Assembly: GCA_902786515.1 (NCBI GenBank)
Contig: CADADA010000010.1
Coordinates: 1-64,000, forward strand
DNA length: 64,000 bases
Source: an uncultured Lachnospiraceae bacterium
GTDB taxonomy: Bacteria; Bacillota; Clostridia; Lachnospirales; Lachnospiraceae
Direction of reading: 5' to 3'
The position numbers were made by a program, and so were the translations under genes. The notes beneath the pieces are model-generated. The model saw only the letters and a program-made list of their open reading frames with translations. It made no database searches and was not told the DNA's origin. Shown piece by piece: positions 38,726 to 58,179 of the stretch. Positions within the stretch are counted from its first letter, which is position 1, and each line of letters begins with the position of its first letter.

Positions 38726-38748
38726 ATTAAGTAAAGTACTTAAGGATT
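38726..38748 (+). repeat. Left inverted repeat (recombination site), 23 bp
   Basis: Exact reverse complement of 58157-58179. It contains the interrupted palindrome TTAAGTA-AAG-TACTTAA (38727-38743), the sort of paired arms that two recombinase monomers bind, and a GGATT extension on the inner side that gives it direction. Confidence 0.95.
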
Positions 38749-38807
38749 CAAACTGAAAATACTATTTTAAGAGAAAAGTTTAATTAAAAATTAAGAAAGG
38801 ATACAAG

Positions 38808-39836
38808 ATGAGGTTAAATATTCTTTATCAAACAGATAACAATTATGCACCATATACCGGTGTATCAATGACTTCACTGTTTGAGAGAAATAAAAGTATA
38901 GCTGAAATATTTGTCTATATATTAGACAACAAAATAAGTGAAGATAATAAACGAAGAATGAAACAAACAGCTAAAACCTTTGGAAGGACGATTGAATTTA
39001 TTCCGGCAAATGATGTAGTTGAATATATCAAACAGTGTGATATGCCAGAATATAGGGGTGGTTATACTAATTACTTAAAATTATTTGCCGGAAATTATTT
39101 TAAAACAAAAAATATTGATATTGATAGACTGGTATTTATAGACAGTGATACATTGGTGTTGGGAGATTTATCAGACTTAATAACTATGGATTTAAAAAAT
39201 AATCTAATCGCCATGGTTGAAGATTCACTTACGTATAAATTTAAAAACAAATATATTGGATTAGAAGAAGATTCACCATACTACAATGCAGGATTTGTTT
39301 TGTTTGACATGAAGTTGTGGTTAGAAGAAGACATAATTACTCAAATAAAGTCTTATGTGGTAAATGTTAGAAGTTCGTTTACTAATCATGAGCAAGATAT
39401 ATTGAATGTTATGTTCAAAGACAGAATTTTGACAATTAGTCCAAAATATAATTTTCAGCCAATACATGATATATATACACCATCACAATATTATAGAATA
39501 TTTAAGAAAAAAAACTATTACTCAAACGAAGAATTAAACAATGCAAAAAAAGATATACGGATTTATCATACATATCGTTTTATAGGTATTTTCCCGTGGG
39601 ATGACAATGATGTTCATCCGGCAAATGAATTATTTGATAATGAGCTTTATTGTTCAGAGTGGAAAAATTACAAAAAAAAGAAAAAAAATCTGCCAGGTTA
39701 TATAAAGTTAGAACGAGTACTTTATAAATATTTACCTAAAATGGTTTTTTTAAAGATTTTTCAAATGGTAAATCATGTTATATATACAAAAAGCAATCGG
39801 AAAAGCTATCTTATTTCGCAAAGTAATATAAGATAA
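38808..39836 (+). CDS. GT8-family glycosyltransferase (module A, first gene)
   Basis: 342 aa. GT8 features: NILYQTDNNYAPYTGVSMTSL at the N-terminus, the metal-binding DSD in LVFIDSDTLVLGDL (about residue 108), YYNAGFVLFDMKLW and NHEQDILNVMF, as in LPS galactosyl/glucosyltransferases. Soluble, with a basic C-terminus (KKKKKN) that may bind membranes. AAAGGA site; lies 59 bp inside the left inverted repeat and would be transcribed from the fixed promoter in the orientation shown. Confidence 0.9.
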   Translation: MRLNILYQTDNNYAPYTGVSMTSLFERNKSIAEIFVYILDNKISEDNKRRMKQTAKTFGRTIEFIPANDVVEYIKQCDMPEYRGGYTNYLKLFAGNYFKTKNIDIDRLVFIDSDTLVLGDLSDLITMDLKNNLIAMVEDSLTYKFKNKYIGLEEDSPYYNAGFVLFDMKLWLEEDIITQIKSYVVNVRSSFTNHEQDILNVMFKDRILTISPKYNFQPIHDIYTPSQYYRIFKKKNYYSNEELNNAKKDIRIYHTYRFIGIFPWDDNDVHPANELFDNELYCSEWKNYKKKKKNLPGYIKLERVLYKYLPKMVFLKIFQMVNHVIYTKSNRKSYLISQSNIR

Positions 39837-39951
39837 AAAGGATAACATGCTAATTTAGCTTTAATAAATGCAATTTTTTTAAGCTTTACTATATGTTAGA
39901 AAATTTTAAGTGAAATAATAGTATATAAGATTATATAAAAGAGGTAACAAT
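39837..39951. other. 115-bp gap in module A
   Basis: AT-rich; no convincing terminator, ORF or promoter seen. A weak hairpin-like AT stretch is present only. Confidence 0.3.
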
Positions 39952-40752
39952 GTGAAAATATCTGTAGTCATTCCATTATATAATGGAGAAAAGTACATAA
40001 ATTATATGTTGAATACGATGAAATGCAACAGCCAAAAATTACCTGATGGATATCATCTGGAAATCTTATTCATAAAAGATAGTACTGAGTCCATCGAATT
40101 TGATAAATATAAAATTGAAAATTTAGATGTCAAATTTTTGGAAAATAAAGAGAATAAAGGTATTCATTATTCCAGAGTAAGAGGCATTTTGTGTTCATCC
40201 GGAGAGTATATACATATGTTAGATCAGGATGATAAAATAACAGAAGATTTTTATTTGCATTTTTTGAAATATTTTAATAAAGGTGACGTTATTGTAGGTA
40301 ATGGAATAGAGGAAAAAAATGGATATGATAAATATTTATATAAATATTATTTTATGCAATCAACTGTTAAATATAAATACTTTTATACAAAATTTTCATG
40401 TCGTATTATTTCACCAGGACAATGCTTAATAAAAAAGACTTCAATACCAAATGCATGGATACAAAATATAGTGAAAAAAAATGGAAGTGATGATGCCATG
40501 TTATGGTTAATGATGTTGCACGACAAAAGAAATTTCATTGTTAACAGGTATGTGGGATATAGACACATTAATACCGGAGCTAATTTATCACTTGATATTC
40601 AAAAAATGAATACCTCTCTTTCAGAAATAATTGAAATTATGAAAAAAACAAATTATATATCTAAAAAAGATTTACTAAGATTGCAAAGTCAACTAAGTAA
40701 TAACAATAAAAGCTTTTTTGTAAAATGCATGGAAAAATTAAACAAAAAATGA
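39952..40752 (+). CDS. GT2-family glycosyltransferase (module A)
   Basis: 266 aa, GTG start after GAGGTAA. GT-A fold: KISVVIPLYNGEKYI, and the DxD-type motif HMLDQDDKITEDFY (about residue 88). The C-terminal part (GSDDAMLWLMMLHDKRNF) carries the acceptor-side acidic residues. No membrane helix. Adds one sugar of the module A repeat unit; donor and acceptor unknown. Confidence 0.85.
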   Translation: MKISVVIPLYNGEKYINYMLNTMKCNSQKLPDGYHLEILFIKDSTESIEFDKYKIENLDVKFLENKENKGIHYSRVRGILCSSGEYIHMLDQDDKITEDFYLHFLKYFNKGDVIVGNGIEEKNGYDKYLYKYYFMQSTVKYKYFYTKFSCRIISPGQCLIKKTSIPNAWIQNIVKKNGSDDAMLWLMMLHDKRNFIVNRYVGYRHINTGANLSLDIQKMNTSLSEIIEIMKKTNYISKKDLLRLQSQLSNNNKSFFVKCMEKLNKK

Positions 40753-40764
40753 GGAGATAGAAAA

Positions 40765-41532
40765 TTGAAAATATATGTTGTTACACATAAAGATTTTAAT
40801 AAACCCCAACTACCGACTATTTACTCTACATTACAGGTAGGAGCCGAAATAAATAATAAATTATCAAATATAGATGAGTATGATAATACATATGAAAATA
40901 TCTCGGAAAAAAATCTAGTATATAACGAAATGACAGGAGCATATTGGATTTGGAAAAACTCTAATGAAGATATTGTTGGATTGTGTCATTATAGAAGATA
41001 TTTTGTAAAATTCTATGGTTTAATATCAAGATTTTTATTTAATAAACAATGTGGATTTGTTGACGAAAAATGGATAAAGAAAAAATTAAAACATTATGAT
41101 GCCGTTGTTCATAAAGTAACATATTTTCCCGATGGAACAAACTTTGAACAATCGAAAGTGCGCGTTAAAAACGGTGATGATCTGATGCTTGTGAGGGAAG
41201 TGTTACAGGATAATTATCCTGAATATATAGACGCATTCGATAGTGTTATGAATTCTAAAACTGCTCACCTTTTCAATATGATAATTACTAAAAAAGAAAT
41301 TTATAATGCTTATTGTGAATGGGTATTTGCCGTTTTATATGAAGTTGAAAAAAGAATGTTGGATGCTGAAGAAACCGAATTTTCAAGAAGAATGGGAATG
41401 TTAGCAGAGCGCCTTCAGGATGTTTGGCTAAAAAAGAACAACATAAAAATAAAATCCTGCTGGGTAATACATTCTGAAAAGAAGACATTTGAGTTTTATG
41501 CAAAGTTAAAATATAAGGGTGACAATCTATGA
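40765..41532 (+). CDS. DUF4422 glycosyltransferase-like protein (module A)
   Basis: 255 aa, TTG start after GAGGAGATAG. KIYVVTHKDFNKPQLPTIYSTLQVGA, TGAYWIWKN and VGLCHYRRYF are the standard DUF4422 blocks; members occur in capsule loci and are thought to be glycosyltransferases. Overlaps the next gene by 4 bp (ATGA). Confidence 0.85.
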   Translation: MKIYVVTHKDFNKPQLPTIYSTLQVGAEINNKLSNIDEYDNTYENISEKNLVYNEMTGAYWIWKNSNEDIVGLCHYRRYFVKFYGLISRFLFNKQCGFVDEKWIKKKLKHYDAVVHKVTYFPDGTNFEQSKVRVKNGDDLMLVREVLQDNYPEYIDAFDSVMNSKTAHLFNMIITKKEIYNAYCEWVFAVLYEVEKRMLDAEETEFSRRMGMLAERLQDVWLKKNNIKIKSCWVIHSEKKTFEFYAKLKYKGDNL

Positions 41533-43454
41533 AAAAATACCTAATACAATATAAAAAAGAAATATTACAACTATTTATATGTATGTCTTTTATAATGATA
41601 TTTTGGAACTTTGCATTAGCCTCTCCATATACCATAAAAAAACATATTATATCTATTATTGTAAAAACAATACTAATTAATGGTATTTGGCTGATATTAT
41701 TGATATTATCATTGAATAATTACGTAGAGTACCTGAATTTAAAAAAAATACAAAAATTAATTTTTGCAAACAAGGAAATACTTATTACTTTGATTATATT
41801 TACGGTCAGTCTGTTTAGCATTTTTGATATATGGTTAATGGGTGATGGCTCAATATATTATTCTTATTTGATGCTAAACAGACCATGGGATTTTGGTAAT
41901 ATTTTTGACTTACAGCTTGCAGGGCATTTAACTTGCTTTTATACAATGTGGCTGCTGATTGGAGAATATTTAATACCCGGATTTGCTATAGGCGTAAGGG
42001 GGATTATTATTATCTTGGCAACAATTACTGTTGCTATGTTTTACAAAATATTAGAAAAAATTTTTATACATATAAATAAAATTAATCTGGCATTGTTTAC
42101 ATGTTTATTTGCTTTTCATGCTGCCTTTTGGGGAATATTAGGAGAAGTAAATGCCGATTTTCCCGTATTAGTTTTTTTTGTATGGATGATATATTTTGGC
42201 ATAAATCAATTATACTTCTTACAAGCATTTTCCGCACTTATGTTATGTTTTTCTAAAGAGACTGGTGTTCTGATTTTTGCATTTTTTGTATTTGGAAGTG
42301 TGTTTTACAGTTTCGTAAAATCATTTAAGCTTGGTTTTAAAGGAATTGTTAATAAAGTTTTTTCCTTTTCAAATTGTTTGATGTATATAAGTGGAATAAC
42401 TTGGTTTTGTGTCTGGAAATTTAATAATAATGGAGCAATATGGACAGGCGGAGCAAATAGCGATGTATTAGATAAAAAAAGTATATCTGGCGTGAAATTG
42501 GATACATTTAACAGTTGTTATGAATATATTTGGCATAAATTAAAAGAAATAGTATTTCTCAACAATGGATATATTTTTTGGATTTTAGGAATAATCGCAA
42601 TTTTGTGTTATGTATTTGGGAAAAATAAGTTTAATATTGAAAAAAAACATATGGGAATTGTCATTGGAATATATATGTCTTTTGTAGGGTTCCTGAATTT
42701 TCAAATGTATTTTTTGACATGGCCTAATTACAGATATTTAATCCCAATTGCATTTTTTGAACCTTTTTTAGCAGCGTTATTTGTGTTGGGTTATATGAAA
42801 AATATAAATAAACAACGAGTTGTTACTATTGTTTGTGTTATAATGATTATTATGTCTAACTTTGGATTTGATCCTATATCAAAGTCCATATTTCAAACCA
42901 TTGATTTAGGAAACGGACATATGATTAGTACCAATCTGTTTTATATAAAAGATTTAGATAATAAAATATTGGCAAAAGATATGGAACTGACATATGAATA
43001 TGCCTATGACGATGAGGGGGTTTCTAATAGAGAATATTGTTACAGAGAGAAATGCATTAATGCTATTCTAAAGAGAATTGATTATACAGATAAGAAGCTT
43101 ATTATTTTCCCTTATATTAATGGTGCAAAATCTTTTTATTATGGGCGCAGAGAGGGATATGAGTTTGAAGATCTATATGTTAATAAAAGGACAAAAAAAT
43201 TAAGCATGAATGCATTTGGTTATGATGTCTCAGACTCAACCCAATGGATACTGTTTAACGATTTATATTTAATAGACAATGCACAAATCAGCACAGAGCT
43301 TTTAAACTCATATGACGAAGTTTATTACGTTTATCCTACATTATCAGATAAGCACAAAATTGATTGGAAGTATCAAATAAATGGGTCGGAAGTTTTGGAT
43401 TCATTCACTATAAAACAATGTACCACAGGTTTTAAGATTTTGAGATTAAAGTAG
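41529..43454 (+). CDS. Large multi-spanning membrane protein, GT-C-like (module A)
   Basis: 641 aa with about 11 transmembrane helices in the first 470 residues and a soluble C-terminal domain. An acidic pair in the first loop (WLMGDGSIYY, about residue 112) and GEVNADFPVLVFFVWM recall GT-C glycosyltransferases or Wzy-like polymerases. It is a clear paralogue of the module B protein at 50920-52839: both have EYLIPG.AIGVR / EFLFPDNVIGVR, E(V/I)N(A/T)DFP and (L)MLCFSKE(T/P)G at matching positions. Each module thus carries its own version. Exact reaction not established. Confidence 0.75.
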   Translation: MKKYLIQYKKEILQLFICMSFIMIFWNFALASPYTIKKHIISIIVKTILINGIWLILLILSLNNYVEYLNLKKIQKLIFANKEILITLIIFTVSLFSIFDIWLMGDGSIYYSYLMLNRPWDFGNIFDLQLAGHLTCFYTMWLLIGEYLIPGFAIGVRGIIIILATITVAMFYKILEKIFIHINKINLALFTCLFAFHAAFWGILGEVNADFPVLVFFVWMIYFGINQLYFLQAFSALMLCFSKETGVLIFAFFVFGSVFYSFVKSFKLGFKGIVNKVFSFSNCLMYISGITWFCVWKFNNNGAIWTGGANSDVLDKKSISGVKLDTFNSCYEYIWHKLKEIVFLNNGYIFWILGIIAILCYVFGKNKFNIEKKHMGIVIGIYMSFVGFLNFQMYFLTWPNYRYLIPIAFFEPFLAALFVLGYMKNINKQRVVTIVCVIMIIMSNFGFDPISKSIFQTIDLGNGHMISTNLFYIKDLDNKILAKDMELTYEYAYDDEGVSNREYCYREKCINAILKRIDYTDKKLIIFPYINGAKSFYYGRREGYEFEDLYVNKRTKKLSMNAFGYDVSDSTQWILFNDLYLIDNAQISTELLNSYDEVYYVYPTLSDKHKIDWKYQINGSEVLDSFTIKQCTTGFKILRLK

Positions 43455-43464
43455 GAATAATACA

Positions 43465-44892
43465 ATGAACACTATAAAAAGAAATTATATTTTTAACTTA
43501 GCATATCAGGTCTTGATATTGATTGTTCCACTGATAACAGCACCTTATTTATCTCGTGTTTTAGGAGCTGATAAGATTGGAGAGTATTCTTTTGCTCAAT
43601 CTATAGTATCCTATTTTTCTCTTGTAGCTGTGCTTGGAACTTCTCTTTATGGGCAACGTACAATTTCATATGAGAGGTCACGAGGCGGAAATATACGAAA
43701 AACTTTTTTAGAGATATTATCTTTGCGTATTGTTGGAACATTTATATCTACTTTATGTTATTTTTTGTTTATTGTATGCAATGTAGATAACAAAATATTA
43801 TATATCGTTGCTGTCATTGAATTGATAGCAGTAATATTTGATATTTCATGGTTTTATCAGGGAATTGAAAAATTTCAGACTATTACAATTTACAATGGGA
43901 TAAGCAAGGTAATAGGCACATGCCTGATTTTCACTTTTGTTAGGACCAAAAGTGATTTAGTATATTACGTCCTTTTCTATTGTGGAACGATTTTGCTTGG
44001 TAATATTTTGCAATGGTTAAACCTAAAAAAGGTATTGCCGAATTACAAAAAGGAAGATTTAAATATTAAGGTGCATTTGCTACCATCTTTCGCATTATTT
44101 GTTTCGCAATTAGCAATACAATTATATACCGTATTAGATAAGACAATGATAGGACTCATAACAAAATCGAATTATGAAAACGGTTATTACGAGCAAAGCC
44201 AAAAACTTGTAAAAATGGCAACAACCATTGTAACTGCTATAGGTGCAGTTATGGCATCACGAATTGCTGTCTTATATGGAGAAGGATACGAAAAAAATAA
44301 ATACAAAATTAAAAAGTTATTGGAGTTTTCATTCAGACTAGTATTTTGTACTTCAATTCCAATTGCTGTCGGAATAAGACTTGTTGCAAGCAGATTTGTT
44401 CCTCTGTTTTACGGAAACGGATATGACGAAGTAATTCCAATGTTGTCAAGGTTATCTATTATTGTTCCTATAATTGGGTGTAGTAACATCATTGGAATAC
44501 AATTGTTCGTTCCTTCAAAACGTGAAAATTTACTAACAAAATCAGTTTTTGTTGGTTCGTGTATTAATGTTATTTTAAACATATTTTTAATCAAAAGATA
44601 TGCAGCTATGGGAGCCATTATAGCATCTGTTATTGCCGAATTTGGTGTTACCTGTGTACAATTTTACTTTGCAAAGGACGAGATATCATTAAAGACAACG
44701 ACAAAGCTTTTTGTCAGATATACTTTCTTTTCTGTGGTAATGTATTATTCAGGAAAGATATTATCTTCAACATTAGATTATAGCGTTTTTAGTATGCTGA
44801 TAATCATTAGCGTGTGTGTTATAATATATGCAACTGAGTTAATTGTAAGTAAAGACCCTATTTTAACATTTGTATTTAATAAAGAAACATAG
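43465..44892 (+). CDS. Wzx-type oligosaccharide flippase (module A)
   Basis: 475 aa, 12-14 predicted transmembrane helices; N-terminal NYIFNLAYQVLILIVPLITAPYLSRVLGADKIGEYSF is the classic polysaccharide-biosynthesis transporter start. Moves the lipid-linked repeat unit across the membrane. A different flippase serves module B. Confidence 0.92.
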   Translation: MNTIKRNYIFNLAYQVLILIVPLITAPYLSRVLGADKIGEYSFAQSIVSYFSLVAVLGTSLYGQRTISYERSRGGNIRKTFLEILSLRIVGTFISTLCYFLFIVCNVDNKILYIVAVIELIAVIFDISWFYQGIEKFQTITIYNGISKVIGTCLIFTFVRTKSDLVYYVLFYCGTILLGNILQWLNLKKVLPNYKKEDLNIKVHLLPSFALFVSQLAIQLYTVLDKTMIGLITKSNYENGYYEQSQKLVKMATTIVTAIGAVMASRIAVLYGEGYEKNKYKIKKLLEFSFRLVFCTSIPIAVGIRLVASRFVPLFYGNGYDEVIPMLSRLSIIVPIIGCSNIIGIQLFVPSKRENLLTKSVFVGSCINVILNIFLIKRYAAMGAIIASVIAEFGVTCVQFYFAKDEISLKTTTKLFVRYTFFSVVMYYSGKILSSTLDYSVFSMLIIISVCVIIYATELIVSKDPILTFVFNKET

Positions 44893-44954
44893 AAGAAATA
44901 TAGAATTAACGAAAGGAGATTCGTAGTAATATTTATTATTATGAAAATAAAAAA

Positions 44955-46076
44955 ATGCAATACGATTATTTAATAGTAGGTGCCGGACTTTTCGGAGCAA
45001 CCGTTGCACATGAAATGAAGAAAAAAGGTAAAAAAATACTGGTTATAGATAAAAGAAACCACATAGCGGGAAATGTCTATACCGAAAAGATAGAGGGAAT
45101 CAATGTACACCAGTATGGTGCGCATATTTTCCATACAAACAATAAAGAAGTATGGAATTACGTAAATCAATTTGCTGAATTTAATAGATTTACAAATTCA
45201 CCGGTGGCAAATTACAAAGGTGAATTATATTCTTTGCCTTTTAACATGTATACCTTTAATAAAATGTGGGGATGTGTAACGCCTGAAGAGGCAAAGAATA
45301 AAATTGAAGAACAGAAAAAAGAAGCTGGAATAACAGAGCCAAAAAATCTTGAAGAACAGGCAATCAGTCTTGTTGGTACGGATATTTATGAAAAGCTAAT
45401 CAAAGGATATACCGAAAAGCAATGGGGCCGTCCATGTACGGAACTTCCTTCATTTATTATTAAACGACTTCCTGTCAGACTTACTTTTGATAATAATTAT
45501 TTTAATGCATTATATCAGGGAATACCTGTAGGCGGATATACAAAGATGGTGGAGAATATGTTATCTGGTATAGAAGTGAAGCTGGAAGCCAACTATTTAG
45601 AAAATAAAGAATCATTCAATGAGATGGCTGATAAAGTTATTTATACCGGACCAATAGATGCATATTTTGAATTCAAATTGGGAACTTTGGAATATCGTTC
45701 AGTGAGATTCGAAAATGAATTGTTGAACATACCAAACTTTCAGGGAAATGCTGCCGTAAATTATACAGACAGAGAAACACCATGGACTAGAATTATTGAA
45801 CATAAATGGTTTGAATTTGGTAAGGATGAAGAAGGAAATGATTTACCAAAGACAGTAATAAGCAGAGAGTATTCATCAGAATGGAAGCCGGGTGATGAAC
45901 CATATTATCCTGTAAATGACGAGAAAAATAGTCAGTTATATGAGAACTACAAAGTTCTGGCGGAAAAAGAAGAAAAAGTATTATTTGGCGGAAGACTAGG
46001 AGAATATAAGTATTATGATATGGATTGTGTGATTGAATCTGCACTTGATATGAGTCGAAATGAAATGATGTTGTAA
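44955..46076 (+). CDS. glf: UDP-galactopyranose mutase
   Basis: FAD enzyme that converts UDP-galactopyranose to UDP-galactofuranose, so the module A glycan probably contains galactofuranose. 373 aa. YDYLIVGAGLFGATVAHEMKKKGKKILVIDKR is the FAD-binding motif; GAHIFHTNNKEVW, YTEKQWGRPC and GRLGEYKYYDMD complete the signature. The nearest AAGGAG lies some 37 bp upstream before a short out-of-frame ORF (44941), so the initiation signal is unusual. A decayed second copy lies at 48892. Confidence 0.95.
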   Translation: MQYDYLIVGAGLFGATVAHEMKKKGKKILVIDKRNHIAGNVYTEKIEGINVHQYGAHIFHTNNKEVWNYVNQFAEFNRFTNSPVANYKGELYSLPFNMYTFNKMWGCVTPEEAKNKIEEQKKEAGITEPKNLEEQAISLVGTDIYEKLIKGYTEKQWGRPCTELPSFIIKRLPVRLTFDNNYFNALYQGIPVGGYTKMVENMLSGIEVKLEANYLENKESFNEMADKVIYTGPIDAYFEFKLGTLEYRSVRFENELLNIPNFQGNAAVNYTDRETPWTRIIEHKWFEFGKDEEGNDLPKTVISREYSSEWKPGDEPYYPVNDEKNSQLYENYKVLAEKEEKVLFGGRLGEYKYYDMDCVIESALDMSRNEMML

Positions 46077-46181: not shown

Positions 46182-47564
46182 ATGACTTTTACATCATCCA
46201 TTTTTTTTATTGGATTTTTTCCGTGGCTGTTGGCTTTCATTTTATGTTTTGGAAAAAAACAGCCTATTTTTAGGCGTATATTAATTTGTATTTCTAATAC
46301 TATTTTTTATATATGGAGTGGGATAGGGGCATTTGTATTTATGTGCCTGTATACGATTTTAGTTTGGCTATTCTCAAATATATTAAAAAGATATAAGAAT
46401 AAGAAAATTTTTTCTATTATAATAATATTAACGTTATTACCTTTAACGTTTATTAAATATATCAATTTTATTATAGTGAATATTAACAATATCTTTAATA
46501 TGCCGTTGAATAATATATCAATTATTGTTCCAATAGGTATTTCTTTTTTTACATTTGAGGCTGTATCCTTAATTGTAGATGTATACAAAGGGAAGATTGA
46601 AAATAAGCTAAGATTAGATGATATTTATTTGTATTTGTCTTTTTTTCCAACAGTTACATCTGGACCAATTGTAAGATTTAATGAATTTAAAAAGGGTATA
46701 GAAAATAATAATTATTTGGTAGATTATAATAGAGCGTTTGAACGTATATCAGTAGGTCTATGTAAAAAAGTTCTTATAGCAGATAAGATTTATGTATTGG
46801 TCGACTATTATTTTAATGGGATAGCTATTGGAAATAGATATTCGTGTTTGGGATTATGGACAGGCTCATTTGCATACTCTTTACAATTATATTTTGATTT
46901 TTCAGGATATTCGGACATTGCAATAGGAATTGGTGCGTTACTTGGGTTTGAAATAAAAGAAAATTTCAATAAGCCGTATCAAGCAAGTAGCATATCAGAT
47001 TTTTGGAAAAGATGGCATATATCACTTACTGAGTGGTTTAGAGACTATGTATATATACCATTAGGCGGAAATAGATGTTCAATTTCTCGACATTTACTAA
47101 ATATGTTGATAGTATGGTTTATAACTGGAATTTGGCACGGTGCAGATTGGTCATTTGTTATATGGGGACTTGGATATTTTGTGCTTTTGGTTATGGAAAA
47201 ATATGTACCTATGATAAAAAGTATTACTAAAAGCTGGTGGGGACACGTATATGCTTTGTTTTTTGTGAATTTTTTATGGATTCCATTTAGGGCAAATAAC
47301 ATGGCAAGTGCAATTTTATATATCAATGGTATGTTTAATTTTAAAAACTGTACGTTATCTGTGGAAGAAAAAGCAGTTAGATTTATGCCGCTGTTATTGG
47401 TTGCGGCGTTACTGTGTTTGCCGTGGAACAAATGGTTTAGTATTTGGTTAAATAAAAGGTGGTTTAAAGTTATAAGGTCTATAATATTAATACTTTTGTT
47501 TTTGCTGTGTATATGTGCCATTATTAATGCATCATATGCACCATACATATACGGAAATTTTTAG
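46182..47564 (+). CDS. MBOAT-family membrane O-acyltransferase (module A)
   Basis: 460 aa, about 10 membrane helices. DltB/AlgI-like: FDFSGYSDIAIGIGALLGF, DFWKRWHISLTEWFRDYVYIPLGG, and GIWHGADWSFVIWG with the catalytic His. Transfers acyl groups, typically acetyl, to exported glycans. GAGGGAGG site. Paired with the DHHW protein that follows, as AlgI with AlgJ/AlgX. Confidence 0.92.
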   Translation: MTFTSSIFFIGFFPWLLAFILCFGKKQPIFRRILICISNTIFYIWSGIGAFVFMCLYTILVWLFSNILKRYKNKKIFSIIIILTLLPLTFIKYINFIIVNINNIFNMPLNNISIIVPIGISFFTFEAVSLIVDVYKGKIENKLRLDDIYLYLSFFPTVTSGPIVRFNEFKKGIENNNYLVDYNRAFERISVGLCKKVLIADKIYVLVDYYFNGIAIGNRYSCLGLWTGSFAYSLQLYFDFSGYSDIAIGIGALLGFEIKENFNKPYQASSISDFWKRWHISLTEWFRDYVYIPLGGNRCSISRHLLNMLIVWFITGIWHGADWSFVIWGLGYFVLLVMEKYVPMIKSITKSWWGHVYALFFVNFLWIPFRANNMASAILYINGMFNFKNCTLSVEEKAVRFMPLLLVAALLCLPWNKWFSIWLNKRWFKVIRSIILILLFLLCICAIINASYAPYIYGNF

Positions 47565-48819: not shown

Positions 48820-48886
48820 GGAATGGAGATTAATATTAGTATTTGTAATAAATTGTTCGATTTTGTACAAGATAAAAGTTAAAATG
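48820..48886 (+). repeat. Dispersed ~65-bp repeat, copy 1
   Basis: GGAATGGAGATTAATA...GTTAAAATG; about three quarters of the bases match 58289-58349 on the same strand, and the first 13 bases also occur at 36413. It abuts the glf remnant. Confidence 0.75.
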
Positions 48887-48891
48887 AAAAA

Positions 48892-49066
48892 AATTGAAGA
48901 ACAGAAAAAAAGCACTTAAATAACAGAGTCAAAAACTCGAAGAACATGCGATTGTGTTTGATAATAATTATTTTAGGGAAATGCTGATGTAAATTATAAT
49001 GACAGCGAAACACCATGAACCAGAATTACTGAAGATAAATGGTTTGAATTCGGTAAAGATGAGGAG
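48892..49066 (+). pseudogene. glf: Decayed fragment of a glf gene
   Basis: Three pieces align in order with the intact glf: 48892-48952 with 45303-45363, 48957-48975 with 45485-45503, and 48976-49066 with 45743-45835 (GGGAAATGCTG..GTAAATTAT, ACACCATG, TAAATGGTTTGAATT). The sequence between is deleted and stops and shifts are present (for example TAAATAACAGAG). The original DEEG codons now supply the GAGGAGG ribosome site of the next gene. Confidence 0.85.
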
Positions 49067-49073
49067 GATTGTT

Positions 49074-50534
49074 ATGGACAATTATGTTTTTTCTAGAAAA
49101 GACGTAGATAATTTTATAAAAGGGTTATCTATCCCATTTGGTATTGAAAAAAAATGCATTGCATTTTTTGGTACTTGTGTCAGTGTTTTGAATTTGGATA
49201 ATGTTTCATTAAGCCAAAAAATAGAGCAATATCATCTGTTATGGAAAAATACTATCATAGACATGTATGATACCGAATTACCGTATTCGGACATCAAGCC
49301 AATAGTAAATATAAATATTGAATTAACACCTTTTTCTATTATTACTGCAGAATTAAGCATGATAGATTATATTGAGGCTATGGCTATGACAGAGTCAGAT
49401 AAATCGTATTGTTTAAATTCTATTAACAACATAAATGAAATTGAATCCTCTTCATGGAATGATGAAAGAAAAATCAATTTTATGATGACCATTTTCTTGA
49501 TGCCACCTTTGAGTTTACTTGGAAACTTCTATAGACAGGCATATGAGTACCATTGCCAAAAATCATATGATATTTTACGAATTGTACAGAATATGCCGGT
49601 TAATAATTTACCCTACAAAACTAATCTTGGATTAAAACTCGCCACTAATTTTGTTGATCAAAAAACATATGAAAAATATGGAGGTATGATTGGTATAATT
49701 AATAATCCGAAGTTTCATAATCTCAAGAATCGTCTACTAAAAATCAAAGATGAATGCGCAGAATCTGCAATACTTCCCTATACAAGACGCTGTCCTCATT
49801 GCGGTAAGGAACATAGCATTACAGTAAATCAAAATGATATCTTTTGGGCTCGTTTAAAAATGTTACATTCAGATGTTGAAAAAGAACTAGGATTGTTGTT
49901 GCTCGATGAATACAGAGAGATGTTTAAAGAAAAGTTTGAAACTGTGATACAGAAACGATATAATATTTTGAACAATGTTGAAAACCCTAAATGTTACATA
50001 CTTGTAGAGGGTGACACAGAAGAATTAGCGATACCATATATGGCAATTAAATACGGCAAACCACTATCAAGCAATAGTATAAAAGTATGGAACTCTAAAA
50101 CAAAACAAAAGGTACTGATGGATTTTGAAAAAATCATGAAAAACAGTCCTGATATAAAAATGTGTGTTTTACTTGATGGTGATGCAAAAAAAGAAATTGA
50201 TCATATACAGAGAATGACAAAAGAAAAATTAGACAGATATGCAATATATCATATTACCGGAAATGGTACGTTTGAAGATATTATAGATATAGATATCTCA
50301 ATTATGGCATTGAATAAAATATACGGTGATAATAAATTTAGTAAATCAGACTTTGAAGCTAATAAGAATTTTTTAAATCAGGTCGAAAAAAAGCTACATT
50401 CAGATTGCACACTTGGTAAATTTGATAAAATAGAATTTATTAAAGTCGTACTGCAACTTATGGATAAAGAACACATTCCTGAAATAATAAAAAAAGTAAT
50501 AGATACGAGCTATAGTCTTGTAAAACAGGCATAA
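49074..50534 (+). CDS. OLD-like TOPRIM domain protein with zinc-knuckle-like motif
   Basis: 486 aa from ATG 49074, 7 bp after GAGGAGG; the upstream in-frame ATG 48999 lies in the glf remnant. Residues 1-240 are not recognised; CPHCGKEH (about 245-252) is half a zinc finger. C-terminal TOPRIM: CYILVEGDTEELAIPYMA (Glu, about 316) and KMCVLLDGDAKKE (DxD, about 370), as in OLD-family nucleases, but without the ABC ATPase that OLD proteins normally have. Could be a defence or DNA-repair nuclease. It lies at the hinge between modules A and B. Confidence 0.65.
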   Translation: MDNYVFSRKDVDNFIKGLSIPFGIEKKCIAFFGTCVSVLNLDNVSLSQKIEQYHLLWKNTIIDMYDTELPYSDIKPIVNINIELTPFSIITAELSMIDYIEAMAMTESDKSYCLNSINNINEIESSSWNDERKINFMMTIFLMPPLSLLGNFYRQAYEYHCQKSYDILRIVQNMPVNNLPYKTNLGLKLATNFVDQKTYEKYGGMIGIINNPKFHNLKNRLLKIKDECAESAILPYTRRCPHCGKEHSITVNQNDIFWARLKMLHSDVEKELGLLLLDEYREMFKEKFETVIQKRYNILNNVENPKCYILVEGDTEELAIPYMAIKYGKPLSSNSIKVWNSKTKQKVLMDFEKIMKNSPDIKMCVLLDGDAKKEIDHIQRMTKEKLDRYAIYHITGNGTFEDIIDIDISIMALNKIYGDNKFSKSDFEANKNFLNQVEKKLHSDCTLGKFDKIEFIKVVLQLMDKEHIPEIIKKVIDTSYSLVKQA

Positions 50535-50545: not shown

Positions 50546-50596
50546 ATATGACCGCTTAATTATAAAAATTATTATTAAGCGGTCACATATTTTTAT
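50546..50596 (+). terminator. Terminator after the TOPRIM gene
   Basis: TGACCGCTTAAT (50549-50560) pairs with ATTAAGCGGTCA (50574-50585), followed by a T-rich tail. Confidence 0.8.
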
Positions 50597-50919: not shown

Positions 50920-52839
50920 TTATTTTATCCTATCAATATTCCATTTCCAGCTAAAACACTGTACTGAGGATTTTGAAATCACATTATTGTTATTCAAAAA
51001 TGCAGAATGATTAAACTGTTTATCAAAAGGCATTTCAAAATAATATATTTCATCATAATTATTCCGTTCACTGTCCGTCAATTCAGACAAAGAGTTTAAT
51101 ACCCTGATATTTAACTTATCATATTCATTATTGTTTTTATAATTATCTACTAAATTTGCACAATTGATTTGTACATGTCCATCTTTACTACTCCAATATA
51201 TTTCATTAATTCCTATAATGTTAACTCCAAATATAGATGCTTTAGTTCCAAACTCATCTCTATATTGTCTGGGTAATATTATAAGTTTATTTTCATCATA
51301 TTTAATTTTTTTCAACGACTTATCAAAACACGACTTCAAGTGTGCACATTGAAAATTATAAACAGCTGAATTGTTCATCTTTGCAAGATCTTTTCTTGAT
51401 TTATCTGCAATAGATACAATACTATTTGAATCACTATTCATAGTAGATGGAATCAAAATTTCATCTACGCCTGTTCCCTGTGTCATAAATATCTTTCTCG
51501 AAAACGGATCTAATGTATAAAAATTTGATAAAATTAGCAATATAAGAAAAATAACCGAAAAACATTTTCTAGCTTTTGCTTTTTCAATACAACACTCTAA
51601 CGCTATTGGTGTTGCCAATGAAATAAAAAACACAAACGGAATTAAGTATCTGTAATGAATAAATGTAATATAAATAAAGTTATACGCTACAAATGATATA
51701 AACGATATTATTATCCCCATAAAACATTCAGCTTGTAATTTTAATTTATCACTTATAATTTTTTTTCCGAATATAATAAGCGAAAAAATCAAAAACAAAA
51801 GCAAAAAATATGGCAGAAAACTAAAATTCATAAATAACATTTGCATTACTTTTGTCCATATATATTTAGGATAGAATGCAATCGTATTTAAATGATATCC
51901 GGACATTTTACCAGTATTTGAAAGTGCGCTATCTCCCCAACTTTGTCCTGAATATGTTATACGATTAATAATCCACAGCACTCCTGCAATAACAGATATA
52001 ATAATATCAACAGAAAAGATTTTTTTTATATATTCTTTTATGGATATTTTTCTGTAAGCAAATAAACGATATAGCACAACTCCCATTAAAAAAAATCCAT
52101 ATAAAAGGCATCCTGGTTCTTTTGAAAAACATAGCATGATTGCACACATGCACTCTAATAAATTTTTTTTATTTATAAATGCACAAATCATCCATACTAA
52201 AAAACAAAGCATTGGAAAATCAGTGTTAATTTCTGAAATCATACCCAAAAACAAGGGATTAAATGCAAATAGTGCCGTATACAGCGTTAAATCTAGTTTT
52301 CCTATTTTTTTAAATGTATTTAGTAATATATTATAAAAACATGTAATAGTAATAAATGCCATAATACAATGTATTATTCTGACACCTATAACATTGTCAG
52401 GAAATAGGAACTCTCCTATCATAACCAGCATAGTATAACCTTGAGACATATGACCCGCCAACATAAAATGATTAAAATCCCGCATGTTCCAATATTTCAT
52501 ATTTCTCAAATCTTTATAATATATATATCCATCAAGATTCATCCAACTGTCTGAAACTGTTAAAAACAGTAATATAAAAATTGAAAAAATAATAAAAACA
52601 GGATAATATGTTAATAAAAAGCCTTTTACATCATACATTTTTATATTTCTTATCGCCTTTAACAAAAGCAATAAAAAAACGATATTGAGTACAATAACCG
52701 TAGCTATATAAATTGCTGCATCATTTTTAAACGTATAACTTGACAACAACGAAACATTTCCAAAAACTACTAGTGGCAACAATACTAACAACAATTCAAA
52801 TACATTTTTTATCTGAATTTTAAAGTTATTCTTAATCAT
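50920..52839 (-). CDS. Large multi-spanning membrane protein, GT-C-like (module B)
   Basis: 639 aa, about 12 membrane helices then a soluble C-terminal domain, the same plan and length as the module A protein at 41529. Shared blocks: EFLFPDNVIGVR, MISEINTDFPMLCFLVWM, IMLCFSKEPGCLLYGFF, and an acidic first loop (WMNLDGYIYY). Likely a membrane glycosyltransferase or polymerase with module-specific substrate. Overlaps the upstream flippase gene by 8 bp. Last gene of module B. Confidence 0.75.
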   Translation of the reverse strand: MIKNNFKIQIKNVFELLLVLLPLVVFGNVSLLSSYTFKNDAAIYIATVIVLNIVFLLLLLKAIRNIKMYDVKGFLLTYYPVFIIFSIFILLFLTVSDSWMNLDGYIYYKDLRNMKYWNMRDFNHFMLAGHMSQGYTMLVMIGEFLFPDNVIGVRIIHCIMAFITITCFYNILLNTFKKIGKLDLTLYTALFAFNPLFLGMISEINTDFPMLCFLVWMICAFINKKNLLECMCAIMLCFSKEPGCLLYGFFLMGVVLYRLFAYRKISIKEYIKKIFSVDIIISVIAGVLWIINRITYSGQSWGDSALSNTGKMSGYHLNTIAFYPKYIWTKVMQMLFMNFSFLPYFLLLFLIFSLIIFGKKIISDKLKLQAECFMGIIISFISFVAYNFIYITFIHYRYLIPFVFFISLATPIALECCIEKAKARKCFSVIFLILLILSNFYTLDPFSRKIFMTQGTGVDEILIPSTMNSDSNSIVSIADKSRKDLAKMNNSAVYNFQCAHLKSCFDKSLKKIKYDENKLIILPRQYRDEFGTKASIFGVNIIGINEIYWSSKDGHVQINCANLVDNYKNNNEYDKLNIRVLNSLSELTDSERNNYDEIYYFEMPFDKQFNHSAFLNNNNVISKSSVQCFSWKWNIDRIK

Positions 52840-54061
52840 CCTGTACCTCCTTTAAACTGCTCTCAGCATAGTAAAATGCAAATCCGGCTGCATACGCAAA
52901 CCTTAATATATTAGTAATTAATATTGCCAATGAAAACGTATACAAGTTACCCCAAATACTCATTGGAATTACAAGAGCTACAAAGGTAATTCCATACATT
53001 ATATTAATGTATAACTGGCATTTTTCCTCAGCAAATCTTAAAATTATTGTTGTAAAAATACCACTGATAAAATAAAATATCTGACCCAGATTTGCTATAA
53101 AAAGGTAATGTTTTACAGTATCAAATTCATCAGGATACAAGAATCTAAGCACGATAAACGATGCTACTGTACATGCAATACCTATTATAAAAACTGAAAA
53201 TAACAGCAATACCAATAACTTCAAAACCGTTTTTTTTGTAAATGCCCCTTTATATTTTGAAATATGACCAATTACTACACTATTAAGTGGCATTGTGAGA
53301 AGAGATACAGTTTTTCCAAACAGTGATGCAATAAAATAAATACTTACAGCACTGGCACTAACTAAAAATTTCAGCACAATCCTGTCGGAATTAAAAATCA
53401 AATTTGATAATAATTGTGCAGAAATAAGATATAAAAATGATTTCACACAAACTGATAATTGCTTATCAAGCTTAAGAAACCCCTGTCGTATCGTAGTTCC
53501 TTTGAAAAAAACAATCAAAATTCCCAATAACTCTCCGGGAATAAGAGCTAACTGCCATATTTTTGTTATATGAAACAGTAACAAACCAAATCCATATCCT
53601 AAACTTATCCACAAATAGTAGAAGAAGTAACCTTTATAATTAAGAGAAAGTCTGTATTCTACATCTGAGTAGTAGCGCCATAATGTTAAACACATTAAAA
53701 TCCAAAATAAAATAATATCGTAAACATTCATATCCACACTGGAAACCAGCGAAACTATTATACAAACAGGTATACAAACAATGTTCGTACATAAGAGTAT
53801 AATATTATAATTTCCATTTTTTGTAGTTGATTTAGAACTGGCTACCATTCTTGATAAATTAAGTGCACAACCTCCTGAAACCGCAACTATATTGATTATT
53901 GATATCAAATAAAGAATATTCCCATAACCTTCATCACCAAATACCTTAGCCCATATTGGATATACTGCAAATTGCGCCACGACATTCATAAGGAGTAATC
54001 CTGCCATACTCCATAATGAATCGTTTATAAAATTTTTATAAGAAAGAAGTTTATTTTTCAT
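52832..54061 (-). CDS. Wzx-like flippase (module B)
   Basis: 409 aa, about 12 membrane helices. NDSLWSMAGLLLMNVVAQFAVYPIWAKVFGDEGYGNILYLISI is a typical N-terminus for polysaccharide flippases. Little visible similarity to the module A flippase, fitting a different repeat unit. Confidence 0.85.
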   Translation of the reverse strand: MKNKLLSYKNFINDSLWSMAGLLLMNVVAQFAVYPIWAKVFGDEGYGNILYLISIINIVAVSGGCALNLSRMVASSKSTTKNGNYNIILLCTNIVCIPVCIIVSLVSSVDMNVYDIILFWILMCLTLWRYYSDVEYRLSLNYKGYFFYYLWISLGYGFGLLLFHITKIWQLALIPGELLGILIVFFKGTTIRQGFLKLDKQLSVCVKSFLYLISAQLLSNLIFNSDRIVLKFLVSASAVSIYFIASLFGKTVSLLTMPLNSVVIGHISKYKGAFTKKTVLKLLVLLLFSVFIIGIACTVASFIVLRFLYPDEFDTVKHYLFIANLGQIFYFISGIFTTIILRFAEEKCQLYINIMYGITFVALVIPMSIWGNLYTFSLAILITNILRFAYAAGFAFYYAESSLKEVQDD

Positions 54062-54103
54062 TTTTAGTCTTTATCCCTTCCAATTGCAAACACAATCCTA
54101 AAA

Positions 54104-54982
54104 TCACTCATAAACAATGTTGTCCATAGGATATTTCCATTCGTATCCTGTTTTTTTTGCAAACTCACAAACAGTCTTCATTTTAGATTTTGTTATTGCA
54201 TTATATTTCCATTCATGAGTAAACACTTCGATAATTTTATTCTGATTAGTGTTCTTACATATAGCTGTCAAATCATTATAAGGAACAACTGAGTTTTCCA
54301 AACGTAAATCCGTAGATACAAGATAGATTTTTTTTGATTGCTCAAAGTAATCATCATGTTCAGCAATATAACGGCTATCATTATCATCTAAAAAGTAGCT
54401 TATCCTGTCATCATCTGCTGTGAGCAACCCCTGTATTCCGTTTTCCGAACTCATTAAACCATCCACAGCATCCGAACTACCCGCAAAGTTTTGCAGACGG
54501 ATTACTGTATCTATGCATTCTTCACTACCTGTAATTTCAATTAACTGTTTTGTTACGGTTGTATAATACTCAACAGCTTCAGAGGATGTAGTATTTGCCA
54601 AGTTTCCCTGATCACTCATATTATGAAAACCGAATTTCAACCAGTCAGCATTGTCTTTAAAATCTTGCTGAAATTTATGCGTACAGTTTAACAGGTTGAA
54701 ATCGTCATTTTGATAAAAACAGTAAAAGCTGAATACTGCTCCATATTCTTCATGCAGCTCTTTACAATACGCTAACATGTCATTATCAAAAACAGATTCA
54801 TATGTGTCCTGATTTTTCGTCAAATCCTCAAACAAACTAATCGTATCATCAAATGACATGTGAATATATCCACCATCCGGTGCCGATGGGGAACTTGTAT
54901 AATTGTACACTGTGAAACCTGTATATGCCAACAAGACTAATATTATTCCTGTAATAATAATCTTTACAATTATCTTTTTCAT
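54104..54982 (-). CDS. Anchored protein, possible NodB-like carbohydrate deacetylase fold
   Basis: 292 aa. One N-terminal signal-anchor helix (about 5-25), then an extracellular domain. HMSFDDTISLFEDL (about 41-54) carries the Asp-Asp of polysaccharide deacetylases; FGFHNMSD and EVFTHEWKYN supply His residues in plausible positions, but the standard HxxxH motif is not clear. It may remove acyl groups from the module B glycan or only share the fold. Confidence 0.5.
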   Translation of the reverse strand: MKKIIVKIIITGIILVLLAYTGFTVYNYTSSPSAPDGGYIHMSFDDTISLFEDLTKNQDTYESVFDNDMLAYCKELHEEYGAVFSFYCFYQNDDFNLLNCTHKFQQDFKDNADWLKFGFHNMSDQGNLANTTSSEAVEYYTTVTKQLIEITGSEECIDTVIRLQNFAGSSDAVDGLMSSENGIQGLLTADDDRISYFLDDNDSRYIAEHDDYFEQSKKIYLVSTDLRLENSVVPYNDLTAICKNTNQNKIIEVFTHEWKYNAITKSKMKTVCEFAKKTGYEWKYPMDNIVYE

Positions 54983-54994
54983 TTTGGAACCTAC

Positions 54995-56086
54995 CTAATT
55001 TTTTGTAATTTTAAGGTACACCTTAACCGGGAAATTTTTCACAAAATTTTTTACTTTTAAAAACCTTTTTCTTCCCTTTGTATATTCCTTATTGCTTTCA
55101 ACCAGCTTTGTTGATAAAAATTTTCTCATTTTCGGCTGAACCCAATGAGATTCCTTACCATCCTTAACAACAACTCTGTCACGCATTTTCAAATATACAG
55201 GTGAATCCAGCTCAGGTATTGCGCCCATAGTTAAAAATGCATGCGAATTGTAACAATGGCTAAGATGACAATAACCCATTGCCTCAAACTTAATCGGCTT
55301 ATTAATGTATTCAAAAATATTCTGTCCACCATATGTGTAATAACATGGCTTTAGTATACCTGTCACAAGATTCAGATAACCGGTCCAATCTCCTGCATAA
55401 CAAAATTCTTTTCTCTTTACACCGAATGTAGACATCTTAAACCTAAACATATCAGAATCAAAAGAACCCCACGTTTTAATATATTCTTCTTTTGATAAAT
55501 CTGTGAGTATCGGAATTGCTGTCTTTGACGCATCTCTTGCAACTGTAACATGACATACTGCCCCAACGTTATCCAGACACACCTGTTTAATCTCATCTAT
55601 CTTGTCTATCAATCCATCATGTGGTGTTATCTCTAATGAAAATGATGCTCCTGCATCATACATTCTTTTAATGTTAGCAAAAAACTTATCCATCATATTA
55701 AGCCGCAACAATTCTTCATAATGAAACGAAAACTTAAAAGAAAGTCTCTCCAGGTATTCTTTGGGGAATTTCGCAATAGCCTCAAAACGCTTTGTAATCG
55801 TACCATTTGTAATAATCATTACGTAATGTCCCTGCTTTAAAATATTATATATGATATCAACCATTTCAGCCGGAATTAATGTTTCTCCCAGTCCACATAT
55901 ATTAATATGGCAGACACCGCCTAATCTTTCCTGAGATAAAACTTCACCAATGATTTCCGGAGAATATTTTAATTTTGGTAATTCTTCATTCCATTTGTTT
56001 TCCTGAGTAATATAACAATATTGGCAACGCAAATTACATTTCGTCGCTGTATATGTGCAGTCTATAAATCGTTTTACCTTATCCAT
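54995..56086 (-). CDS. Radical SAM protein (module B)
   Basis: 363 aa. Cluster motif CNLRCQYC (CxxxCxxC, residues about 18-25), GLGETLIP as the GGE-like SAM motif, and a C-terminal set of Cys (FCYAGDWTGYLNLVTGILKPCYY, GYCHLSHCYNSH) resembling SPASM/twitch auxiliary cluster ligands. Radical SAM enzymes of this kind occur in surface-glycan loci; the substrate is unknown. GGAGG-type site on the reverse strand. Confidence 0.85.
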   Translation of the reverse strand: MDKVKRFIDCTYTATKCNLRCQYCYITQENKWNEELPKLKYSPEIIGEVLSQERLGGVCHINICGLGETLIPAEMVDIIYNILKQGHYVMIITNGTITKRFEAIAKFPKEYLERLSFKFSFHYEELLRLNMMDKFFANIKRMYDAGASFSLEITPHDGLIDKIDEIKQVCLDNVGAVCHVTVARDASKTAIPILTDLSKEEYIKTWGSFDSDMFRFKMSTFGVKRKEFCYAGDWTGYLNLVTGILKPCYYTYGGQNIFEYINKPIKFEAMGYCHLSHCYNSHAFLTMGAIPELDSPVYLKMRDRVVVKDGKESHWVQPKMRKFLSTKLVESNKEYTKGRKRFLKVKNFVKNFPVKVYLKITKN

Positions 56087-56099
56087 TTTGTCCTCCTGT

Positions 56100-57065
56100 T
56101 TATGAACCAGAATACCTTAACTTATACATCTTTATTAGAATTTTATAATTAATCGCTGTCATAACAGCACTTAATTTAAATACCATACTAACATAACTAC
56201 AAAAAATAATCTTATCCAAATTCTGGCGTATATCAACTACAATCTTACGTATCAGTTTTTGATCATATTTTTGGTTCTTCCCCATAGATACAATTATAGC
56301 CATTTCTTCTATCATTCCGTAATTAATAATTTCCTTTTTCAAGGCTGGAAACTGTGCTACCAATTTTTTTCTGTATGACATATACATATTGTATGACACA
56401 ATACGTTCTTCATTGAATCCGCCTTTGCTCATAGTGGTTGCAGCCTGTATATAATGATATTTACATCCGGAACATACAGATATTTTTTTTGAATGTAGTA
56501 CCGCCTGAAGAACAATGCTGTAATCTTCACCTATGATATTTCCTTTAGGAAAATTCACTTTATAAAAAACTTCTTTTTTATATAATTTGTTCCATGCATA
56601 TGTCATCACTTCGCTACGTTTGTGAATAAAGGAAATCGCCTGTTCAGGTGTCAGCACATCTCCGGATTTCAGTGGAAAATCTATATTATCGGAATGATTT
56701 CCATAATCCATAAAAAAGCCAATACTGGCGATATCCGAATTATTTTTTAAAATATTATCCATCAAACATTGATACATGTCTGGTTCTATCCAATCATCTG
56801 CATCTACAAAACCAATATAGTCTCCCGTTGCATTTTCCACGCCGGTTTTGCGAGCCTGAGGCAACCCTTGATTTTTCTTATGTATTACTTTGATTCGCGA
56901 ATCAACAGCTGCATACTTATCAGCTATATCTCCGCTTGAATCTTTACTTCCATCATCTATAACTAATATTTCAAGGTTTTTATATGTCTGGTTAATGATA
57001 CTTCTTAAGCAACGTTCAATATCTTTTTCAACCTGATATGCAGGCACAATAACACTAATCATCAT
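56100..57065 (-). CDS. GT2-family glycosyltransferase (module B)
   Basis: 321 aa from the ATG at 57065, preceded by AGAGGAG on the reverse strand; ATG 57083 is a longer in-frame alternative. ISVIVPAYQVEKDIERCLRSIINQTYKNLEILVIDDGSKDSSG, then GFVDADDWIEPDMY as DxD motif: classic GT2. Overlaps the pyruvyltransferase gene by 11 bp. Confidence 0.92.
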   Translation of the reverse strand: MMISVIVPAYQVEKDIERCLRSIINQTYKNLEILVIDDGSKDSSGDIADKYAAVDSRIKVIHKKNQGLPQARKTGVENATGDYIGFVDADDWIEPDMYQCLMDNILKNNSDIASIGFFMDYGNHSDNIDFPLKSGDVLTPEQAISFIHKRSEVMTYAWNKLYKKEVFYKVNFPKGNIIGEDYSIVLQAVLHSKKISVCSGCKYHYIQAATTMSKGGFNEERIVSYNMYMSYRKKLVAQFPALKKEIINYGMIEEMAIIVSMGKNQKYDQKLIRKIVVDIRQNLDKIIFCSYVSMVFKLSAVMTAINYKILIKMYKLRYSGS

Positions 57066-58104
57066 TTGTAGTTCTCCTCTCATGAATCCTCTTTAACAAG
57101 TCCCACAAAGGTTTACTATCCTCTTCAAAATTTTTTATAGAGTATTCAACATTCGATATATTTGTTAAATATTCCAATTGTTGTTCAAGCTCATTTTTTT
57201 CTGCAAATTGCACATAATCAATATCATGCAATTGATTAAACACACCCCGTACTTTATGTGATGAATTATCAAATGCAAGGCAAGGCGTAGATGTTATAAT
57301 TGCAAAAATCATTCCATGTAACCTATCTGTAATAACCAATCCTGCTTTACGATATTGCGATAGTTTTCTGTTCAAAAAAAATTTTCTTGCATATACAGGA
57401 AATTCACAGTGTTCTCTTGTCATAGAAATTGTTTTGGTATGATATCCATTTTTATCAAGAAATTTCTGAATTCTCTCTTTGGTTATATCATCCAACACAC
57501 GTTCTCTATCATTTCTAAAACAGAGTACAACTTCTTTATTTGACATCCTGTCTTTTGGGAAATCCAATCCCAAAACCATATCAGGAACTAAATATATATT
57601 CTCTTTTTTTTCAGGTAACCATTGCCCCGTAACAAACTCATATGAATTTTTTTCCCTCAGACAGATGTATAAATGCTTATGTTCCAAAAAGTATTTTTTT
57701 GATTGGGACATAATTTTTTTATCTTGAAAAAATATAGTCTGCGGAAATACTACAATATGATTTTCAGGATACGTCTCCAATATCTCTTCTGTATATTTTT
57801 GAAATACCGGCCATATATCACCCAAAAAACCACCGCCTGATATTATCAGAATGTCGTTATCTGAAATATGTGATTGTAAGAATTGCTTCCAGTTCTCATA
57901 AAAATTAACTGAAATTTCAAAAACACGTCTATCTGGGAAATTTTTTTTCAAATACATCAACGATGAATACGCAATTGCGTGATCTCCATAATTAACGTAT
58001 TGTGGAGATAGCAGTAATAGGACTTTGTCACCCTTAAAAAAAATCAATTTAAAAAAAGTTCCTAAATTCATAAACCATTCAATCAATTTTTTTAAATTCT
58101 TCAT
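57055..58104 (-). CDS. Polysaccharide pyruvyl transferase family protein (module B, first gene)
   Basis: 349 aa from ATG 58104 with AAGGAG 6 bp upstream; the TTG at 58137 lies before that site. LLLLSPQYVNYGDHAIAYSSL, ISGGGFLGDIWP and VITDRLHGMIFAIITSTPCLAFDNSSHK are CsaB/WcaK family blocks. Adds ketal pyruvate, or in some members acts as a glycosyltransferase. It is 52 bp inside the right inverted repeat, the same arrangement as the GT8 gene at the other end, so it would become promoter-proximal after inversion. Confidence 0.88.
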   Translation of the reverse strand: MKNLKKLIEWFMNLGTFFKLIFFKGDKVLLLLSPQYVNYGDHAIAYSSLMYLKKNFPDRRVFEISVNFYENWKQFLQSHISDNDILIISGGGFLGDIWPVFQKYTEEILETYPENHIVVFPQTIFFQDKKIMSQSKKYFLEHKHLYICLREKNSYEFVTGQWLPEKKENIYLVPDMVLGLDFPKDRMSNKEVVLCFRNDRERVLDDITKERIQKFLDKNGYHTKTISMTREHCEFPVYARKFFLNRKLSQYRKAGLVITDRLHGMIFAIITSTPCLAFDNSSHKVRGVFNQLHDIDYVQFAEKNELEQQLEYLTNISNVEYSIKNFEEDSKPLWDLLKRIHERRTTNDD

Positions 58105-58156
58105 ACTATACTCCTTAAACAAATAATGTTTTTTCAATCAGGCAACTATGTATAAA

Positions 58157-58179
58157 AATCCTTAAGTACTTTACTTAAT
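58157..58179 (-). repeat. Right inverted repeat (recombination site), 23 bp
   Basis: Exact reverse complement of 38726-38748, including the palindromic core (58162-58178). The outer flank (58180 onward) shows no clear promoter reading toward module B. Confidence 0.95.

Follow-up and report, generated by a model that had tools for sequence, protein, structure and literature searches.

A putative invertible segment exchanging two glycan-biosynthesis operons behind one fixed promoter in an uncultured Lachnospiraceae bacterium

A 64,000-nucleotide stretch of DNA from an uncultured Lachnospiraceae bacterium (contig CADADA010000010.1 of assembly GCA_902786515.1, positions 1 to 64,000; hereafter the window) carries at positions 38726-58179 what is very likely a programmed invertible segment, exchanging two whole glycan-biosynthesis operons, here termed A and B, behind one fixed promoter. 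The segment is bounded by an exact inverted repeat and adjoined by a tyrosine recombinase gene, which is predicted to invert it. An exchange of operons had been proposed in a preliminary description of this DNA, made from the letters alone, and is supported by the layout of the locus, the repeats found beside relatives of the recombinase, and conservation in a sister species, from which we infer that the segment inverts and that expression changes with it.

The left arm of the repeat (38726-38748, forward strand) has an exact inverted copy at 58157-58179 (reverse strand), as described earlier, with the 23-bp arms delimiting a block of ~19.4 kb. When the window was simulated 100 times under an order-3 Markov model, exact inverted repeats with arms separated by 500 bp or more reached maximum lengths of 15-19 bp, which bears out the earlier judgement that a chance origin of the 23-bp match is not credible. 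Within the bacterium's own assembly (G000; 3.2 Mb in 108 contigs) the 23-bp sequence occurs at these two places only, even with up to 3 mismatches allowed, and a shufflon, which requires more than two sites, was rejected for this reason. Each arm is built on AAGTA-AAG-TACTT and contains exactly the core AGTANNNTACT (AGTA-nnn-TACT), which is absent elsewhere in the window and has a chance of ~2e-4 of occurring in any given 23-mer. A search of G000 with a 21-bp pattern of the site returned an additional match with 2 mismatches at C15:3076, in what looks by eye like coding sequence and taken as a chance match, and one with 3 mismatches on contig C6; a control pattern matched once in G000, and once and twice respectively in G002 and G004, two of the genomes compared below. 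A search of IMG/VR with 22 bp of the site gave no exact hit. The arms supply the two oppositely oriented sites of a site-specific DNA-inversion switch, and are predicted to serve as such. The first gene of operon A begins 59 bp inside the left arm (ATG at 38808), as reported previously, with the corresponding distance for operon B corrected from 52 to 51 bp (ATG at 58105).

The recombinase gene (37684-38649, forward strand) is an open frame of 321 amino acids whose stop codon lies 76 bp from the left arm. Its product contains both integrase domains, PF00589 (98 bits) and PF14659, with residues R154, K205, H267, R270, H293, and Y303 invariant in an alignment of 8 sequences; we take these to be the catalytic residues, forming the R-K-H-R-H-Y set of a tyrosine recombinase. 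The gene next to the segment is thus complete, as had been claimed, and is under purifying selection, with a ratio of nonsynonymous to synonymous substitution rates (dN/dS) of 0.098 against its counterpart in G004.

A promoter-like site, TTGACA-17-TATGAT (38682-38710, forward strand), lies outside the left arm and points into the segment, matching 11 of 12 positions and being identical in G004. On the other side, a scan of 57900-59300 revealed no minus-strand promoter-like site at 58180-59047, the 868 bp outside the right arm, with two 9-of-12 sites farther out, past the antitoxin and toxin genes. This agrees with the earlier claim of one promoter for two operons, an inward promoter-like site lying close to the left arm only. 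As the scans yield about as many sites as shuffled sequence (11 versus 10.6 on the left, and 11 versus 8.6 on the right), conservation was given more weight than the scans. The motif TTGACA-N8-ATAAATNGGTATNAT, which was derived from three sites encountered in this analysis, matches the window at two places with up to 3 mismatches, compared with 0.09 expected. Matches without mismatch occur in G000 only before the left repeat and before a fixed GT2-family glycosyltransferase gene outside the segment (motif at 36458-36486, found by motif search; gene at 36544-37506, assigned by family match; both forward strand), in G004 at the two equivalent places, and in G002 before a glycan operon led by a GT8 gene; every other match in the five genomes of the genus has 2 mismatches. 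The exact extended motif is confined to glycan units in these three Lachnospira genomes. An inverton with an invertible promoter was rejected, since the segment does not contain the conserved promoter motif, which is located on the outer side of the left repeat.

Under the proposed mechanism, the adjacent recombinase would bind half-sites around AGTA-nnn-TACT, exchange strands in the centre, and flip the whole block 38726-58179. The transcription start would be expected near 38717 and would stay outside the segment, and either operon would therefore receive the same promoter and short leader. Inversion would place B1, the first gene of operon B, behind the fixed promoter, which would then read operon B and not operon A; in the orientation assembled here, the right-hand operon would be silent. 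The recombinase is presumed to act on these repeats, in a reversible inversion that would occur in populations. A more far-reaching proposal, which we consider likely, is that the arrangement forms an obligate either/or switch, in which one of two complete surface-glycan programmes, and never more than one, is at all times read from the one fixed glycan promoter, served by a dedicated recombinase, with the sites and operon ends held constant and the contents exchanged between species.

Operon A runs on the forward strand and encodes a GT8 glycosyltransferase (A1, 38808-39836), a GT2 glycosyltransferase (A2, 39952-40752), a DUF4422 protein (A3, 40765-41532), a 641-amino-acid membrane protein (A4, 41529-43454), a Wzx-type flippase (A5, 43465-44892), a UDP-galactopyranose mutase (A6 or Glf, 44955-46076), an MBOAT O-acyltransferase (A7, 46182-47564), and an AlgX-like SGNH protein (A8, 47574-48758), all except A4 being assigned by Pfam matches. 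These are followed by A9 (48999-50534, forward strand), which a Pfam match identifies as an OLD-like TOPRIM protein, and by a long hairpin and a run of T (50549-50591, forward strand), resembling a terminator for operon A, which was noticed by eye as an inverted self-match and was not listed by the terminator scan. Operon B runs on the reverse strand and encodes a polysaccharide pyruvyl transferase (B1, 57055-58105, with its ATG at 58105 following AAGGAG), a GT2 glycosyltransferase (B2, 56100-57083) and a radical SAM protein (B3, 54995-56086), both with family matches, a protein without family match or assigned function (B4, 54104-54982), a flippase-like protein with a weak Polysacc_synt match and ~9 predicted membrane spans (B5, 52832-54061), and a 639-amino-acid membrane protein (B6, 50920-52839).

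A4 and B6 are homologous (30% identity over 603 residues, E 1e-70), and of the two only B6 was modelled, with a predicted fold that is GT-C-like. Neither protein reaches the cut-off for any Pfam or NCBIfam family, and B6 has 29 relatives in a protein search. Each operon has the components of a flippase-dependent glycan operon, namely glycosyltransferases, a flippase, and a membrane polymerase or GT-C protein, in keeping with the earlier report of a flippase and a large membrane protein in both, the operon B flippase being only a weak match. The gene content suggests that the products of both are surface polysaccharides. The earlier description of two convergent glycan operons between the repeats holds for their presence and orientation, with the exception of A9, which is not a glycan gene. 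Between A8 and A9, positions 48820-49065 contain fragments of glf (matching 45300-45829) together with sequence from outside the right arm (58289-58349), and these fragments show scars of past rearrangement.

The G+C content of the segment is low (0.29 and 0.31, versus 0.36 to its left), and the domains of the recombinase family also occur in integrases of phages and plasmids, as would suit an integrase beside an integrated island. Attachment sites flanking an island are direct repeats, however, whilst those of the window are inverted, and on this ground the island was rejected; furthermore, the recombinase lies outside the segment and none of the 15 genes within it is marked as a mobility gene by its Pfam matches. 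We regard an island as very improbable.

Five genomes of the genus Lachnospira were compared, the bacterium's own included (G000-G004), and three of these carry the site at up to 2 mismatches, with both sites present in G000 and G004 and one in G002; no copy was found in G001 or G003 at this threshold. The sister species G004, a metagenome-assembled genome of ~110 contigs, has a recombinase 92% identical in amino acid sequence, the same promoter, and the same orientation as G000, placing operon A in the read position in both genomes that have the locus. Its left and right repeats retain 22 and 23 of the 23 bases respectively, and identity stops at the ends of the arms on both sides. Both ends of operon A are retained and its middle differs; A1 (98%) and Glf (97%) are kept, with distant counterparts of A3 (50%) and A4 (38%), a 37% match of A2 to the B2 region alone, and no match to A5, A7, A8, or A9 at E 1e-5 on the three contigs that carry the segment in G004. 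Operon B retains all of B1-B6 at 80-98%, with B4 and B5 covered only partly owing to a gap. Synonymous divergence between G000 and G004 is uneven (0.03 in A1, 0.06 in B6, 0.38 in the recombinase gene, and 0.60 in B3), a pattern suggesting that parts of the segment were recently exchanged between species, with the sites retained.

Both assemblies are fragmented, and the segment of G004 is spread over contigs C20, C74, and C63, with the gap in operon B falling between C74 and C63 and the end of C20 matching within C74 over 40 bases, not 60. An artefact of assembly or binning is nevertheless extremely improbable, with the segment of the window lying within one 130-kb contig and both junctions agreeing between the two species.

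Relatives of the recombinase were sought at the level of the family, where 94 of 397 genomes (own included) gave a match at E 1e-40 or better, with 130 matches in total and 129 without that of the window; the protein cluster of the recombinase comprises 10 contigs. The surroundings of 63 of the 129 were surveyed, 11 of these having at most ~1.5 kb of flanking sequence on either side and several lying near contig ends. Of the 63 relatives, 33 are accompanied by an exact inverted repeat of 17 bp or longer, one arm of which lies no more than 700 bp from the gene, compared with a maximum of 15 bp in a reversed control. Among the 33 repeats, 8 contain the core AGTANNNTACT exactly and 9 a version with one mismatch, and these repeats favour the window repeat as the probable recombination site. 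At locus L043 (46% identity), where the exact core alone was checked, it was absent. Two more relatives came from searches of the order and class: G561 (45%), which is full-length and whose 21-bp pair, at 61 and 4140, does not contain the core, and G644, which is partial.

Several of the relatives sit at glycan loci. Glycosyltransferase genes lie on both sides of the recombinase in G336, where 28-bp inverted repeats (C23:19392-20829, from L097 at 19392 to L098) enclose the recombinase between divergent glycosyltransferase operons; the element is likely a small two-way switch. The nearest genes are divergent in 6 of the 19 relatives that have repeats around the gene and neighbours fetched on both sides. 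HMGL-like, thiamine pyrophosphate (TPP)-enzyme, and GT2 genes occur near the relative in G253, a sugar transferase near that in G070, and DegT aminotransferases near those in G107 and G355, with an AAA-ATPase/PDDEXK_9 gene and a choline-binding-repeat protein found near that in G325 instead.

Several observations weigh against a programmed exchange of the two operons. The repeats of the remaining 16 of the 33 relatives differ from the core at two or more bases, and some long repeats may be unrelated, as those at L141, L149, and L156 look to be. In 27 of the 33, unlike in the window, the recombinase gene lies between the repeats, and no other surveyed relative has a core-bearing pair so far apart. 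Among the closest relatives outside the genus, G107 (47%), G253 (45%), and G325 (43%) have no repeat pair above the control within 60 kb, with the stretch from G292 ended early by its contig. Additionally, the inverted state was not seen, with the two genomes that have both sites sharing one orientation, and the second junction expected of an inverted copy is absent from G000. Finally, a lone copy of the site in G002, with 2 mismatches in 23, follows a similar promoter and precedes an operon that encodes a GT8 protein (31% identity to A1), a Glf (85%), and a protein with 49% identity to B6, indicating that the sequence may have another role.

The lone copy speaks for a reading in which glycan-operon leaders share the 23-bp sequence as a cis-regulatory element, such as a regulator site, duplicated before both operons, with the recombinase acting elsewhere. 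A search of G002 with the 21-bp pattern, allowing 3 mismatches, gave no partner site, its best recombinase match is not close (21%, E 1e-11), and both copies in the window are in leader position. A relative of B3 (46%) in G002 lies on contig C69, where the exact core is absent. Against this reading stand the lack of a promoter-like site in the 868 bp outside the right copy, a centre identical to the core of repeats beside recombinase relatives, the want of spare copies in G001 and G003, and the end of identity at the arm ends. We consider this explanation unlikely and read G002 as a derivative without the switch.

The shared orientation of G000 and G004, the resemblance of G002 to a one-site derivative, and the leftovers of glf and right-flanking sequence between A8 and A9 could alternatively reflect a former inverton that is now locked, its recombinase or sites dead and operon A permanently on. 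Such a loss of function is at odds with an intact recombinase at a dN/dS of 0.098 between species, with repeats kept at 22-23 of 23 bases in both, and with the open reading frames of operon B in both, making a locked inverton quite improbable beside the exchange of operons by inversion favoured here.

The surroundings of the segment contain further features. A short intergenic element with a terminal hairpin (36275-36437) has 18 matches in its own genome (some overlapping, 73-100% identity) and copies in G004 where the window has none, and looks like a small mobile repeat. The region directly outside the right repeat encodes a PhdYefM antitoxin and PIN toxin pair (58347-58926), followed by a tandem pair of AAA-ATPase/PDDEXK_9 genes (59124-62457) that is kept in G004. 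Farther upstream, a nucleotide-sugar cassette (26326-34721) includes a TPP enzyme and an HMGL-like protein, and G253 has similar genes next to its relative of the recombinase.

The majority of inversion switches described so far act on a promoter or on single genes. In the capsule loci of gut Bacteroides, a short promoter segment inverts and sets each operon on or off. The window would resemble these loci in the phase variation of surface polysaccharides by site-specific inversion, but whereas the promoter turns in Bacteroides, in the window the promoter would stay fixed and the operons turn, giving A or B. The sap locus of Campylobacter fetus similarly combines invertible DNA, carrying S-layer genes, with one promoter, but the promoter lies inside the segment and the genes are single structural genes. 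The small recombinase-bearing putative invertons seen in this analysis among the Lachnospiraceae relatives, such as that of G336, share the recombinase family and related sites with the window and several lie at glycan loci, but differ in that their repeats mostly enclose the recombinase; as the inverton of G336 lies between two divergent glycosyltransferase operons, it is the element between the operons that would turn. If the exchange proposed for the window is correct, turning two operons behind one promoter would guarantee the reading of a single glycan programme at a time, a one-or-other logic that would suit escape from phages or immunity.

In the vpma locus of Mycoplasma agalactiae, according to the accessible text of PMC5634654, the site-specific recombinase Xer1 likewise shifts coding sequence relative to a single promoter, but acts on single lipoprotein genes through several sites, whereas the window has whole biosynthetic operons and two sites. 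A 2025 review (PMC11868660), as far as its accessible text goes, treats single-gene or promoter switches, and the main text of two inverton studies (PMC11892184 and PMC10939037), in the portions available, contains no Lachnospira-type words. Our literature search found no two-operon inversion in Lachnospiraceae or Firmicutes, with coverage of subscription journals and bioRxiv too thin to imply absence. The nearest known case is that of Eggerthella lenta, for which the accessible part of a 2026 preprint (PMC13174815) shows megabase inversions at 16-bp repeats involving three capsule clusters, with no recombinase gene beside the breakpoints and the authors favouring more than a simple promoter swap. 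Those authors, in the same text, note that long inversions are easily missed by short-read surveys; a 19-kb segment is likewise easily missed by short-read inverton surveys, and similar switches may therefore be overlooked. E. lenta, where inversion is demonstrated, and the window, where it and its link to expression are predicted, have in common inversion at short inverted repeats linked to changed expression of whole gene clusters (those for the capsule in E. lenta), with the window differing in its 23-bp repeats, 19.4-kb length, two convergent operons, adjacent recombinase, and single promoter.

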